In this document: positions 2-4,357 of the stretch, in pieces | Position numbering within the stretch: position 1 is the stretch's first letter | How the letters are laid out: each line of letters opens with the position of its first letter | DNA from: a methanogenic archaeon | GTDB taxonomy: Archaea; Thermoplasmatota; Thermoplasmata; Methanomassiliicoccales; Methanomethylophilaceae | Reading direction: 5' to 3' | Length of the DNA: 5,083 nucleotides | Assembly: GCA_902787415.1 (NCBI GenBank) | Contig: CADAGG010000075.1 | Span: 1 to 5,083, forward strand | Position numbers and translations under genes: made by a program | Notes under the pieces: generated by a model | Told to the model about the DNA's origin: nothing | The model's input: only the letters and a program-made list of their open reading frames with translations | Databases searched by the model: none

Positions 2-103
2 CTCATCAGAGAGGTCTACGACGTCGAAGCATCGGTCGGATTCGATAAGGATGGAGAAATCTACGTCCTCCCCAAGAGATTCGTAGGAGACTACAATCTT
101 TGA
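2..103 (+). CDS. C-terminal end of an ABC transporter ATP-binding protein, iron-siderophore/cobalamin (FecE/BtuD) type; 5' part lies outside the window
   Basis: An open frame enters at the window edge and ends at TGA 101-103, giving 33 residues. Its segment [20 protein letters not shown] resembles the short tail of FecE/FepC/BtuD-type ATPases, where a 'VYGVEA' element is followed by a beta hairpin containing D-G-x-P/Y-x-V-x-P. Known members bind and hydrolyse ATP at the inner face of the membrane to drive uptake of iron chelates, heme or corrinoids with a FecCD-type permease and a binding protein. Walker A, Walker B and the signature motif would all lie upstream, so the call rests on the tail alone. 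The stop overlaps the start of the next gene by four bases (TTGA), which implies cotranscription and translational coupling. A different ABC ATPase subfamily, or an unrelated protein with a similar tail, cannot be excluded. Confidence 0.55.
85..90 (+). promoter_or_regulatory. Ribosome binding site supporting the TTG start at 100
   Basis: AGGAGA lies 9-10 bases before TTG 100-102 and matches the archaeal anti-Shine-Dalgarno. It decides the start. The next in-frame methionine is residue 30, which would remove the P-loop at residues 10-18, and no other credible start falls between. The site lies inside the end of the upstream ABC ATPase gene, as expected for coupled translation. Confidence 0.65.
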
Positions 104-2256
104 CGCCAAGGAAGATAGCAATCTATGGAAAAGGCGGCATCGGTAAGTCTACAGTATCCTCCAACCTCACCGCCGCCCTCTCCGACATGGGCATAAAGGT
201 CCTGCAGATCGGCTGCGACCCCAAGCACGATTCCACCAGGGCCCTCATCGGCGGCACCGTCCAGAACACGGTACTGGATTACCTGAAGGAGGTCCGCCCG
301 GAGGACCGGAAGCTCGGCGATGTGGTGTCGGAGGGATACAAGGGCTGCCTCTGCGTGGAGGCCGGAGGTCCCGAGCCCGGCGTCGGATGCGCCGGCAGAG
401 GCATCATCACGGCCTTCGACCTGCTCGAGAGGCTGGGTTCCGGCGAGGTGGATTCCGACATCACGTTATACGACGTCCTCGGCGACGTGGTCTGCGGAGG
501 CTTCGCCGTCCCGCTGCGCAACGACTACGCAGACACCGTATACATCGTCACCTCCGGGGAGTTCATGGCCATCTATGCCGCCAACAACATCCTCAGAGGA
601 ACGGCCAACTACAATCCCGACAGGATCGGGGGCATCATATTCAACAGCCGCGGGGACCCGGAGGAGGACTCCCGCGTGGAGAGGTTCTCGGAGGCGGTGG
701 GCATACCCATCGTGGCGAGGATCCCCCGCTCGCCGATCTTCATGGAGGCGGAGCAGCGCGGGGCCACCGTCATAGAGGCCTTCCCGGATTCGGAGATAGC
801 GGATACCTTCAGGGATCTGGCACATGCGGTGATAGAGGGCAGGAGGCACCACGCGAGGTTCCTCTCGGAGTCCGAGCTCGAGAAGCTCATCCTCGGCAGA
901 GATACTTCCTCTAAGAAGGAGAGGCCGGTCAGGGAGGAGCTGAAGGTGACGGGGGCGGTGTTCCGCCCGTACACCTCCAAGAACGCCGCCTACGACGAGC
1001 CCCTGCACGGATGCGCCTTCTCCGGCGCCTCCTCCGTGTGCACCTCGGTTAAGGGGCTGACCACCGTCCTCCACGCCCCCAGGAGCTGCGCCATGCTCAC
1101 GGTGCAGCTCGACTCCAAGAGCGTGAAGGGGGCCTACACCAGGGGGTACCGCACCTCGGAGAGCTTCCGCGACCCGGACGTGATCTGCACGGACATGGGC
1201 GAGGACACCATGGTCTTCGGAGGGAACGCACTCCTGAAAAGGAAGATAGAGGACCAGGTCGCCCTCGGGAAGAGGGATTTCGCCATCATCACAGCCTGCC
1301 CGCCCGGGATAATCGGCGATGATCCCAAATCAGTGGCACAGGAGATCGAGAAGGAGCATCCCGGCGTGAGGGTGGCGGTCTTCGAGGAGGACGGCAACGC
1401 CACCGGCGACTTCATGCAGGGCACCCTGGATGCCGGTATCGGGTTGATGGAGCGCTTCTGCTCCCCATCGGAGAAGAGGCCCCTGACCGTCAACCTGGTG
1501 GGGGTGAAGACCATGGCCAGCAGCGCCGGGTCCGAGATCGCCCAGGTCGAGGGGTACCTGAACGAGCTGGGCATCGAGGTCAACTGCGTCCTCCCCGGGT
1601 TCAGCACCGTGGAGGAACTGGGGAGGATCCCCGCGGCGGCCGCCAACCTCAAACTAAATCCCGACCTGTTCACCGAGAAGATGTGCATGTACCTGGAGGA
1701 CAGGTTCGGCATCCCCGCCGTCGAGCTACCCGTCCGCGGGGGCCTGGCGGGCACCTCGGATTGGATAAGGTGCGTCGCATCCTTCTTCGGGAAGGAGGCG
1801 GAGGCCGAGAGGCTCATCGCCCGCCTCGCGGAGCAGTACCGCGAGCTGATGGAGGGCCCCCGCAGGCTGCTTTCCGGGAAGACGTGCTGCATCCTGACCA
1901 TCGGGAACGATGTCACCTGGATCCGCGAGGTGGCGGAGCTGGCGGGCATGGAGATGTTACGTGCATATCTGCTGAAGCGTTCCGACTACAGCTCGAACCT
2001 CACCTCGGATTACCTCGACAAGGCCTTCACGCCGATCACGGAGAAGGATGTGCCAGACGTGCTGAGGGAGATAGATTCGCTGAAGCCTGATATATTGCTG
2101 GTGCCGGCCACCGTGAAGGTCTCTCCGGAGATCTACCAGTGCCGTCTGCCGTACACCAACGCCACCGATCCCTTCGCGGGGAGGCTGCTGGCGGAGGATT
2201 GGATCAGGGGAGTCCTCGCTCCCAGGAAGGAGGGGTGGAGGGACGATGTCGCTTGA
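100..2256 (+). CDS. NifH-NifD fusion: nitrogenase-like (group IV) Fe-protein domain joined to a NifD-like catalytic subunit
   Basis: This 718-residue chain joins two proteins that are normally separate. Residues 1 to about 266 are a full NifH-like ATPase. It has P-loop GKGGIGKST (10-18), the GCDPKHDST switch I region, C97 in [12 protein letters not shown] and C132 in [10 protein letters not shown] as ligands of the bridging [4Fe-4S] cluster, and switch II D125/D129. A charged linker (about 267-284) leads to a NifD-like domain (about 285-718). There C305, C330 and C400 ([10 protein letters not shown]) match NifD P-cluster ligands Cys62, Cys88 and Cys154, and [12 protein letters not shown] matches the NifD core. 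The FeMo-co cysteine (NifD Cys275) aligns near P521, and no histidine stands at the NifD His442 region (about 680-700). It is therefore probably not a nitrogenase but an ATP-driven low-potential reductase of unknown substrate. The TTG start is set by the RBS and the P-loop. The gene overlaps both neighbours, and the next gene is its likely partner subunit. No stop or frame break is seen at the junction. Domain assignment is strong; the function is not known. Confidence 0.9.
2227..2242 (+). promoter_or_regulatory. Ribosome binding site region for the NifK-like gene, inside the fusion gene
   Basis: Two purine-rich Shine-Dalgarno-like stretches, AAGGAGGGG (2227-2235) and GGAGGG (2237-2242), lie within the last codons of the fusion gene, just before ATG 2246. 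GGAGG at 2229-2233 has a spacing of 12 bases; the second is very close at 3. They support reinitiation or coupled translation across the 11-base overlap and support the start that keeps C5 of the partner protein. Confidence 0.5.
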
Positions 2257-3523
2257 CTGCGAGCGCCCGGAGAGCTATCTGGGCATGCTGATGGCGCTGG
2301 AAGGGGTGTCCGACGGTTTCACCATAATACACGGGCCCACCGGATGCAAGTACTATCCCGCCTCCGTCTCGGAGACGGCCTTCCCCGACAGGGGAGGGGA
2401 GGTGAAGGCCAGGAACCTGTTCCGTTATTCGTGCAAGTACTTCTTCAGCCAGCCCCGGCTGCCCTGTACATATCTCGACATGGGGAGGTTCGTCACCGGC
2501 GCCACCGAGAGGCTGAAGGACCTGTACTCCAGGGCGGAGAAGCTGGATCCGTCGCTGATCTCGGTGATCAACTCCCCCGGGGCCTCCCTCATCGGCGAGG
2601 ACCTGAACGCGGTGTCCGGGGACATCCCCACCGTGAGGATCGACCATGCCGAGTACTCGGGGACCTGCGCCGACGGGTTCCAGGACGGGGTCCTGGAGAT
2701 CCTGAAGGTTATCAGGCCGGAGAAGGCCGCGGAGAGGAAGGGAGTGAACCTCCTGGGTCTCAGCCTCCTGCACCTCAACTGGGAGGACACCGCGGAGGAC
2801 CTGAAGGCATTGCTGGGTCTTTGCGGAATCGACGTCAGGTGCACCGTCGGGGCGGGCTGGTCCGTGAAGGACATCAGGGAATCCGCGGGAGCGGAGCTGA
2901 ACGTCCTGGTGTATCCCGAGTACGGCGACAGGGTCGCCTCCTTCTACGAGAGGGAGTACGGCATACCGTCCGTCGACGAGGGGGTACCGTTGGGATTCGG
3001 CAATCTCGAGAGATGGATCTCCGCCGTGTGCGGAAAGCTCGGGAAGGACCCATCTCCCGCCCTCGCGAAGATCAAAGAGGGACGCAGGATGGCCGCCCGC
3101 TCGGTGGCCCTGATGGAATCATTCCACCTGCTGCCCAAGGGACACACCTTCTCCGTCCACTGCGACGGATCTCTGGCGCTCGCCGCGACGGAGTTCCTGT
3201 ACGATTACCTGGGCATGGTGCCGGTGGCCGTGACCTGTCCCAGCGGTGCCGGATGGGAGCGGAGGGCGAAGGAGTTCGTCTCCTCCCACTGCATACCGTT
3301 CTCGGACGATGCCCTCCACACGGAGGCGGAGATCATGCTCACCAGCGGCACGCTGGGTATATCGTGCGTCTCCCGCGGGCTCGTGAAGGGGTACGCCGAA
3401 CTGGAGGCCCCCGGGACGAAGTACGTGAACGTGCGTCCGGAGCCCCCCATAGGCCTCACGGGAACGCTCCGTCTGGTGGATTCGGTGCTGAACATCATCG
3501 CCTCGAGGCAGAGGTTCGTCTGA
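2246..3523 (+). CDS. NifK/NifD-like subunit of a nitrogenase-like reductase, probable partner of the upstream fusion protein
   Basis: This 425-residue protein belongs to the nitrogenase component 1 superfamily. It is shorter than NifK (about 520) and close to BchB/BchN-type subunits. The N-terminus has C5 and then IIHGPTGC with C34, matching NifK Cys70/Cys95 in order, although C5-C34 spacing is a few residues longer. [15 protein letters not shown] (72-86) aligns with the NifK SCVSDSMTEDAAVFGG region. [14 protein letters not shown] (110-123) matches the third-ligand motif, but the cysteine is replaced by P111. Additional cysteines are C63 and C74. The C-terminal Rossmann-like part includes [20 protein letters not shown] (303-322). 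C34 sits where BchB of protochlorophyllide reductase uses Asp36 as the fourth ligand of a [4Fe-4S] cluster. It could therefore complete a cluster with C305, C330 and C400 of the fusion protein. The gene overlaps the fusion by 11 bases, implying a 1:1 complex. Substrate unknown; heterotetramer formation is inference from the family. Confidence 0.83.
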
Positions 3524-3557: not shown

Positions 3558-4049
3558 ATGGCAGTACTGTCGGACAGGGACATCCTCGCGGGGATGGAGA
3601 GCGGACGCATCGGCATCACGGATTACAGCGAGAAGAGCCTCACGCCCAACGGCTACGACCTCAGGGTGGCGGAGATCTCGGTCAACGGGGTCGTCCACGG
3701 GGCGGAGGAGAAGGTCGTGAGGATCCCTCCGAAGACCATGTTCTTCGTATCCACCGTCGAGAGGGTCAGGATGGGCGACGACGTCTGCGGCAATCTGTGG
3801 CTCAGGACCTCCTGGATCAGGAAGGGTATCATCGCTGCTTTCGGTATGGTGGATGCCGGTTTCGAAGGCACTCTGACACTTGGTTCCTACAACAGCTCCG
3901 ACAGTGAGTTGGAGATTCCAATCGGGGAGAGGTACTGTCAGCTGGTGTTCCAGACCATGACCTCCGATTCCGAGAAGAGTTATGCCAAGAGGAGCGGACA
4001 TTACCAGGGACAGACCGGTGTGACCCTGAAGCCTATCGAACGTAAGTGA
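3558..4049 (+). CDS. dcd: dCTP deaminase/dUTPase family protein, likely dUTPase-type because the deaminase glutamate is missing
   Basis: This 163-residue protein of the trimeric Dcd/Dut fold acts in the cytoplasm on deoxypyrimidine triphosphates, to make dUMP for dTMP synthesis and keep uracil out of DNA. Visible motifs are the Dcd-like N-terminus LSDRDIL (4-10), TPNGYDLRV (29-37), LRTSWIRKGI (82-91), GMVDAGFEG (96-104), IPIGERYCQLVF (120-131) and the Dcd-type tail HYQGQTGVTL (148-157). D99 matches the dUTPase water-activating aspartate (Asp135 of the bifunctional M. jannaschii DCD-DUT). Ten residues on, where that enzyme and E. coli Dcd have the deaminase glutamate (Glu145/Glu138), this protein has G109. 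It may hydrolyse dUTP without deaminating dCTP. Length is shorter than E. coli Dcd (193). The ATG at 3558 keeps the family N-terminus. It follows the nitrogenase-like operon but has no obvious functional tie. The family is sure; the exact reaction is inference. Confidence 0.85.
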   Translation: MAVLSDRDILAGMESGRIGITDYSEKSLTPNGYDLRVAEISVNGVVHGAEEKVVRIPPKTMFFVSTVERVRMGDDVCGNLWLRTSWIRKGIIAAFGMVDAGFEGTLTLGSYNSSDSELEIPIGERYCQLVFQTMTSDSEKSYAKRSGHYQGQTGVTLKPIERK

Positions 4050-4138: not shown

Positions 4139-4357
4139 TCAGTTTTTCAGCAGGTCTTTAGCCACTCTGAGGACGTCTTCCATCATATCCTCAGGTACTT
4201 CGGCTATTTCTGCGGCTTCTTTGATGGAGCAGTGCAGTCTATTTGATATTCCAATGACCGCCTTTGCCATGCCCTTGGCTTTACCATCGGCCAAACCCTC
4301 ATCATACGCATCCTGTCTGATCTCCAGGCCCCAGTCGGTAAAATGCTCAACTTCCAT
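4139..4357 (-). CDS. Small protein of 72 residues resembling the C-terminal tail of an Rpn/PD-(D/E)XK nuclease-transposase family protein; possible remnant
   Basis: The protein begins MEVEHFTDWGLEIRQDAYDE, followed by a G-K/D-rich helix, GLADGKAKGMAKA (21-33). It ends in a short helical domain, SIKEAAEIAEVPEDMMEDVL, that resembles the tail of Rpn (recombination-promoting nuclease) proteins, where a 'YDEGxxEGKxKG' hinge precedes a 'xxAxxxxGxxxEEI' helix pair. No nuclease residues are present, so it cannot act as a full Rpn enzyme. It may be a decayed remnant or a stand-alone internal product like the C-terminal Rpn fragments. Its GC is about 45-53 percent across its length, against about 60-70 percent in the nitrogenase-like genes, which suggests a different origin. 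No Shine-Dalgarno precedes the ATG, but a TATA-like box sits at leaderless spacing. It is almost entirely charged and helical, with no membrane segment. The family link is from tail motifs only. Confidence 0.5.
   Translation of the reverse strand: MEVEHFTDWGLEIRQDAYDEGLADGKAKGMAKAVIGISNRLHCSIKEAAEIAEVPEDMMEDVLRVAKDLLKN

Follow-up and report, generated by a model that had tools for sequence, protein, structure and literature searches.

A fused NifH–NifD-like gene of methanogenic archaea with a NifK-like partner and a family-level link to corrinoid genes

Results

The fusion gene and its surroundings

The window, that is, the whole stretch of 5,083 nucleotides analysed here, carries a gene on its forward strand (100–2256, TTG to TGA, zero in-frame stops) whose 718-residue product, HD, joins a NifH-like Fe protein to a NifD-like domain. 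The Fe-protein domain (residues ~1–265; 100–894, +) contains the P-loop (127–153), C97 (388–390) and C132 (493–495). It is followed by a linker (residues ~266–298; 895–993, +), mostly disordered by prediction as judged from pLDDT and length distribution, and by the NifD-like domain (994–2253, +) with C305 (1012–1014), C330 (1087–1089) and C400 (1297–1299). Pfam annotates Fer4_NifH at residues 4–264 (315 bits) and Oxidored_nitro at 305–667 (197 bits). The uninterrupted NifH and NifD-like chain described in an earlier note on this DNA is thus confirmed, the ORF being open throughout and both domains complete. Named relatives from Methanomethylophilus and Methanomassiliicoccaceae (P0014, P0015, P0017) are 58–61% identical.

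Sharing an 11-base overlap with the end of HD is the gene of a 425-residue NifK-like partner, K (2246–3523, +; PF00148, 138 bits), with C34 at 2345–2347 and C74 at 2465–2467. The combination of a fused H-D protein and a downstream NifK-like gene places the locus among the fused H-D plus K proteins (PMC3464626).

The window opens with the last 33 codons and stop of a gene for a BtuD/FecE-type ABC transporter ATPase (2–103, +), recognized by alignment: the 33-residue tail matches ABC ATPase C-termini with scores of 116 (L060 gene 11) and 115 (L048 gene 2, assigned to ABC_tran by Pfam), the best of 60 shuffles reaching 52. The two genes are likely to be translationally coupled, because the ATPase TGA (101–103) overlaps the HD TTG (100–102). 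This transporter gene end, absent from the earlier note's entry, is the best local hint of HD function. L034, the ATPase closest to the partial gene, scores about equally with the F420-0, Fe-dicitrate and corrinoid transporter models, in all cases below the cut-offs.

Farther downstream, the window contains a dCTP deaminase-like gene (3558–4049, +; NCBIfam dCTP_deam, 125 bits against a cut-off of 92.8), a 72-residue ORF with no Pfam or NCBIfam match (4139–4357, −), and a Trm5/Taw-like tRNA methyltransferase gene cut by the contig end (4393–5082, −; NCBIfam scores below cut-offs). Elsewhere in the same draft genome we found three CobN matches (among the matches listed) and, on a different contig, a separate CfbC-like H (L002).

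Conservation of the H-D junction

The earlier note had proposed searching related archaeal genomes for the same H-D order, and had named a sequencing error concealing a stop/start pair at the junction, or two separate genes at this locus in close relatives, as what would overturn the fusion. Fused HD is present in 87 of 147 genomes of the order (best E <1e-90, among the matches listed; copies cut by contig ends included). The same junction occurs in complete single-contig genomes and in proteins of many assemblies, and its retention across separately assembled genomes gives no support to a missed stop or indel. A junction stop masked by sequencing error is untenable. The window's draft genome is indeed fragmented (166 contigs, 82.6% complete), but as complete single-contig genomes and the 83 aligned proteins share the same junction, the chance that two genes were joined by an assembly or sequencing artefact is next to nil, and we rejected this reading on the conservation of the junction. 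In a phylum-wide sample, 36 of 389 genomes match P0157, a fused protein, with an E of 1e-90 or lower, and all 36 belong to this order; the 389 genomes thus yielded no independent archaeal lineage with fused HD for a neighbour test.

In alignment A3, which comprises 83 fused proteins chosen from 237 fetched, the spacing from L260 to C305 varies between 42 and 117 residues (median 44). The linker looks coding, since its third-position GC (0.89) resembles that of H (0.85) and D (0.88). An AlphaFold model of HD has a mean pLDDT of 87, with linker segments 271–288 and 295–298 below 50; the linker is therefore predicted to be flexible, which is what a tethered Fe protein would need.

In-frame stops were seen in some HD copies among the matches listed, at least three (two TGA in G036:C6, one TGA in G111:C4, one TAG in G037). 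The last of these, in the orthologue of the window HD at L004, lies at residue 478 of the aligned stretch, where the window has A. TAG is present in several CobN genes of the order too, and these in-frame codons, in HD and CobN alike, could be pyrrolysine codons or mutations. D without H also occurs in the order: in genome G073 (L089:2929–5507), an H-less D-K pair lies beside CbiZ, a BtuD-like ATPase, FecCD and CobN, with an HD-K pair a few kb away in the same genome; the H-less pair may borrow its H from elsewhere.

Cluster ligands

Residues C97, R100, C132, C305, C330 and C400 are invariant in the alignment of fused proteins (83/83). This bears out the two NifH cysteines and the three NifD-like cluster cysteines pointed out in the earlier note. 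Among 36 K proteins adjoining HD in the fetched loci, C34 is present in 36 and C74 in 33, whereas C5 is variable; K residue P111 occupies the aligned position of a BchB cysteine. The six-cysteine P-cluster set, three in D and three in K, was not found: D has all three, and in K only C34 is invariant. Neither the window nor the sampled alignment rows have a cysteine at the position of NifD C275, the FeMo-cofactor ligand; the same numbering appears in PMC3464626. To judge from their conservation, the HD-K cysteines would fit a [4Fe-4S] relay that lacks the FeMo-cofactor cysteine. Nitrogen fixation was rejected on these ligands, there being neither a C275-like cysteine nor the six-cysteine set.

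Proteins with two Fe-protein domains

Twenty of the 237 fetched proteins carry two Fe-protein domains followed by one D (P0108, P0111, P0114, P0121–P0133, P0136–P0139; mostly 1079–1106 residues), and all three H motifs occur twice in 17 of them. In 17 near-full-length H-H-D proteins, H1 and H2 are 48–59% identical. In a tree of H domains, H1 (support 100/97) and H2 (100/97, including one HD protein, P0141) form sister groups (100/80); a single duplication inside the HD family is thus the likely origin of the tandem. The tree holds four separate Fe proteins from the 15 loci scanned, the motif and ORF filter having removed others, and leaves the number of fusion origins unsettled. The AlphaFold model of an H-H-D protein reached a pLDDT of 78 and a pTM of 0.54. 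Two scans of genome contigs for the DNA context and taxonomy of the H-H-D proteins confirmed no relative, and a plasmid search with the bacterial HD P0178 (Desulfobulbus elongatus) showed separate nifH and nifD genes in the best 15 of 265 records. Three further proteins (P0134, P0140 and P0142; 807, 636 and 609 residues) repeat H motifs, only one motif in the case of P0142, and have no D match; they could be truncated H-H-D proteins.

Co-occurrence with corrinoid genes

HD was scored as present at a best E <1e-90 per genome and CobN by PF02514, both among the matches listed; on this basis CobN occurs in 84 of 147 genomes. Both are found in 77 genomes, HD only in 10, CobN only in 7 and neither in 53 (Fisher 6e-22), with the proviso that divergent fused copies score weaker (2.9e-88 for G038:C3), so that some HD-negative genomes may carry one. 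The seven CobN-only genomes (G017, G022, G046, G065, G070, G096, G109) may include such missed copies. Among 74 good genomes (at least 90% complete, at most 5% contaminated), the corresponding counts are 41, 4, 0 and 29 (Fisher 1.3e-16), or 40, 4, 1 and 29 if G032, whose truncated HD (a 460-residue frame) had scored as HD, is reassigned. The four good genomes with HD and without CobN are G016, G056, G071 and G116. By genus, both are present in 18, HD only in 1, CobN only in none and neither in 11.

Because relatives are not independent, we also shuffled HD labels within genera, which gave p 5e-5 for CobN and 0.50 for the control PF09820, an unrelated accessory family (scored among the matches listed). 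Raw Fisher tests are significant for this control as well (6e-4 in 147 genomes, 0.04 in 74), and for this reason the within-genus test alone is clean.

Distances point in the same direction. They were counted in 29 low-contig genomes; G040 was part of the CbiZ, CbiB and MatE searches but was omitted from the counts. CobN lies within 15 kb of HD at 12 of 30 loci (1.6 expected), CbiZ at 9 of 32 (0.8 expected) and CbiB at 3 of 32 (0.6 expected, p 0.03; one CbiB match per genome where found). FecCD permeases, which are numerous (3–22 matches per genome), lie within 7.5 kb at 17 of 32 loci, with at most 4.3 expected (both among the matches listed), while the MatE control lies within 15 kb at 2 of 32 against 2.3 expected. 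The FecCD and MatE copies entered were solely those close to HD loci, and genome totals were taken from match counts, halved for MatE, which gives two matches per protein. Co-occurrence and distance together tie the HD family to corrinoid genes.

Gene neighbourhoods in the order

The corrinoid gene context is seen at the level of the family, and in the window through the ATPase gene end only. In G015 (L054), G021 (L063) and G023 (L090), co-directional genes for a transporter, CbiZ, chelatase I/D, HD and K stand together, with CobN nearby. The operon of G023 reads permease, ATPase, CbiZ, chelatase I, chelatase D, HD, K, with CobN on the opposite strand. G015 and G021 have the same gene set preceded by a binding protein; chelatase I and D are fused in G015, and the genes of the G021 operon were assigned by sequence clustering rather than Pfam. 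In G047 the order is HD, K, CbiA, binding protein, FecCD permease, ATPase. There, CbiA exceeds the cut-off curated for cobyrinate a,c-diamide synthase; the best models of the transporter are corrinoid ones, yet below cut-off. In G056, one of the genomes without CobN, genes for a binding protein, permease and ATPase lie downstream of K.

Within the clade of the window, HD of G037 and G041, its nearest relatives on longer contigs, is preceded on its own strand by genes for a related ATPase and a FecCD permease; one long gene in G037 and two genes in G041 lie in between. The HD-K pair of both genomes lies ~11–13 kb from a CbiB-CbiZ-CobS block. The orthologues in G038, G040 and G044 lie closer, with 1.2–1.8 kb between HD-K and CbiB, after which come CbiZ and CobS; a CobC-like aminotransferase stands in front of the CbiB block in G038 and G044. 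These shared neighbours can be plain descent, since the synteny of the window genus also takes in the dCTP deaminase and Trm5-like genes. CobN is distant from HD in G035, G037, G038 and G044, and the G035 orthologue is near none of CobN, CbiZ and CbiB. Orthologues in g4, g10 and g13 (L043–L045, L047, L049–L052) have no neighbours that group with the corrinoid gene clusters, and a Pfam scan of four of their neighbour clusters yielded zero corrinoid genes. The corrinoid link of the window's clade is accordingly weaker than that of its paralogues. In eight loci scanned, every Rfam family stayed below its gathering score.

Discussion

Relation to described systems

The earlier note knew of no described example of this fusion order, without taking that as proof of novelty; the order is in fact described in the literature. 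Fused H-D plus K nitrogenase-like proteins were described in Archaea by Dos Santos et al (2012; PMC3464626), Borrel et al (2014; PMC4153887) use a "fused nifH/nifE" of "Ca. M. intestinalis" as a landmark, and a 2024 fusion survey (PMC11237513) reports NifH-NifD/E fusion in Methanomassiliicoccales, and in Methanosarcinales and Methanomicrobiales the composite as well as the split form. The database name "NifEH" also exists for P0193. The window shares architecture and order with the Dos Santos proteins and is a member of that kind; the present analysis adds the link with corrinoids and the H-H-D form. In the accessible portions of the same three papers no gene context is given for fused HD, and the available literature on fused nitrogenase-like proteins yielded no function for fused HD or for the H-H-D form. 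The architecture is thus already in print, and the gene context and inferred function are new.

Among characterized systems, CfbCD comes close in several respects. The best NCBIfam model of the window H is CfbC (332 bits, below the cut-off of 402), CfbCD works on a tetrapyrrole, and a single [4Fe-4S]-type relay is predicted here. In contrast, CfbC is a separate protein and CfbD a homodimer (available text of PMC11423573), whereas the window H is fused and a K partner is present. DPOR (BchLNB) and COR (BchXYZ) also differ in their separate Fe protein, and the neighbours of the HD family are corrinoid genes; the window proteins score far below the curated NCBIfam cut-offs of BchL, BchN, BchB, BchX and BchZ, the best model of K being DPOR BchB at 72 bits against 490. 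The group IV enzyme MarHDK has both a P-cluster and an [Fe8S9C] cluster (PMC12552129). In MarD the [Fe8S9C] cluster is bound by Cys270; the window D lacks a cysteine at the C275-like position, which may correspond to it, and the ligand of the large cluster would then be absent.

A close counterpart of the partner genes is found in Dehalobacter restrictus, whose operon-2 encodes FepBCD/BtuCDE-like transporters, two CbiZ, CobN and magnesium-chelatase subunits after a cobalamin riboswitch, and rises 346-fold in RNA and on average 46-fold in protein under corrinoid starvation (available text of PMC4285132). It shares the partner set of HD and K (together, HDK), with the differences that the host is a bacterium and that a nitrogenase-like gene is unnamed in this text ("nitrogenase" gives zero matches). 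This shows that, in a bacterium, HDK's partner genes make up a corrinoid-salvage unit.

Proposed function and alternatives

We propose, with about even confidence, that HD and its NifK-like partner form an ATP-driven iron-sulfur corrinoid reductase that brings cobalt to Co(I) in cobamide salvage, the substrate being read from the gene neighbours only. More broadly, the substrate could be a corrinoid or another tetrapyrrole, with Co(II) to Co(I) as the preferred step. Two H domains would pair with MgATP, and single electrons would pass from the [4Fe-4S] cluster of H to a [4Fe-4S] cluster ligated by three cysteines of D and one of K, and on to the bound corrinoid. Reduction of Co(II) to Co(I) comes after cobalt insertion and before adenosylation, and by this pathway order HDK would sit between CobN and the adenosyltransferase. 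The corrinoid reading draws on the operons of G015, G021, G023 and G047, the co-occurrence with CobN, the proximity of CobN, CbiZ, CbiB and FecCD, the ATPase gene end in the window, the CbiB, CbiZ and CobS neighbours in its clade, the Dehalobacter partner set, and the action of other family members (DPOR, COR, CfbCD) on tetrapyrroles. It is weakened by the abundance of FecCD permeases, which serve other chelates too, by the unspecific transporter scores of L034, and by the four good genomes that have HD without CobN. If true, corrinoids join the tetrapyrroles handled by the nitrogenase-like family, enzymes in print since 2012 gain a testable role in corrinoid salvage, and there is a possible answer to the questions of how cobalt becomes reduced in these anaerobes before it is adenosylated and why CobN is present in them.

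The same gene context admits other readings. HDK might instead reduce a double bond in the ring of a metallated tetrapyrrole, with CobN and chelatase I/D as that pathway's own chelatase and no cobalt redox. The placing of a CobN/BchH-type chelatase next to a nitrogenase-like reductase is reminiscent of the pairing of BchH with DPOR; BchB is the best model of K, albeit at 72 bits for a cut-off of 490, and several HD paralogues per genome could imply several substrates. Reduction of ring bonds is also what DPOR, COR and CfbCD perform (PMC11423573, in the part available). The neighbours CbiZ, CbiB, CobS and CbiA indicate corrinoids specifically, however, and we regard ring-bond reduction as rather unlikely. 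Since transporters of the FecCD and FecE types are the most frequent neighbours, and the next of kin of the window ATPase is not specifically corrinoid, the transporters could be siderophore or haem importers and HDK could release iron or another metal from imported chelates (metallophores, haem) by reduction; this is improbable, as it leaves unexplained the near one-to-one co-occurrence with CobN and the presence of CbiZ in HD operons.

A role on proteins rather than free cofactors is a further alternative, with HDK as an activator that spends ATP to bring corrinoid methyltransferases, or a different protein-bound cofactor, back to the reduced state, or as a NifEN-like scaffold. Unrelated ATP-driven activators do reduce protein-bound Co(II), and the hosts are methylotrophic methanogens. 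Against this, methyltransferase genes are single cases among the annotated neighbours, and the operon partners of HDK are import and salvage genes, which makes such a role quite improbable.

Stoichiometry of the Fe protein

Returning to the proposed corrinoid reductase, it is a reasonable inference that a tethered Fe protein would alter the docking cycle. In known complexes, each DK half docks one Fe-protein dimer. An (HD)2K2 tetramer with one H per D would have a single Fe-protein pair for two docking sites, and its halves would take turns, or H domains would be shared among tetramers; in the H-H-D relatives, the second H is carried within the same chain. The H-H-D form is what would be expected if D performs best when every copy has an H pair to itself. 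A more far-reaching version, which we offer tentatively and at less than even confidence, makes the fused HDK a separate corrinoid-dedicated class that reduces Co(II) to Co(I) after CobN with its Fe protein tethered. H-H-D proteins would then be single-chain Fe-protein dimers on their own docking site, one chain plus K running a whole half-reaction cycle. H-D and H-H-D chains are natural cases of Fe-protein docking at fixed stoichiometry, useful for asking if the Fe protein must leave after every electron.

Some genomes carry several fused HD genes, among them G072 with four and G015, and CobN matches number up to seven in G072 (among the matches listed). These multiple HD and CobN copies suggest parallel pathways with different substrates.
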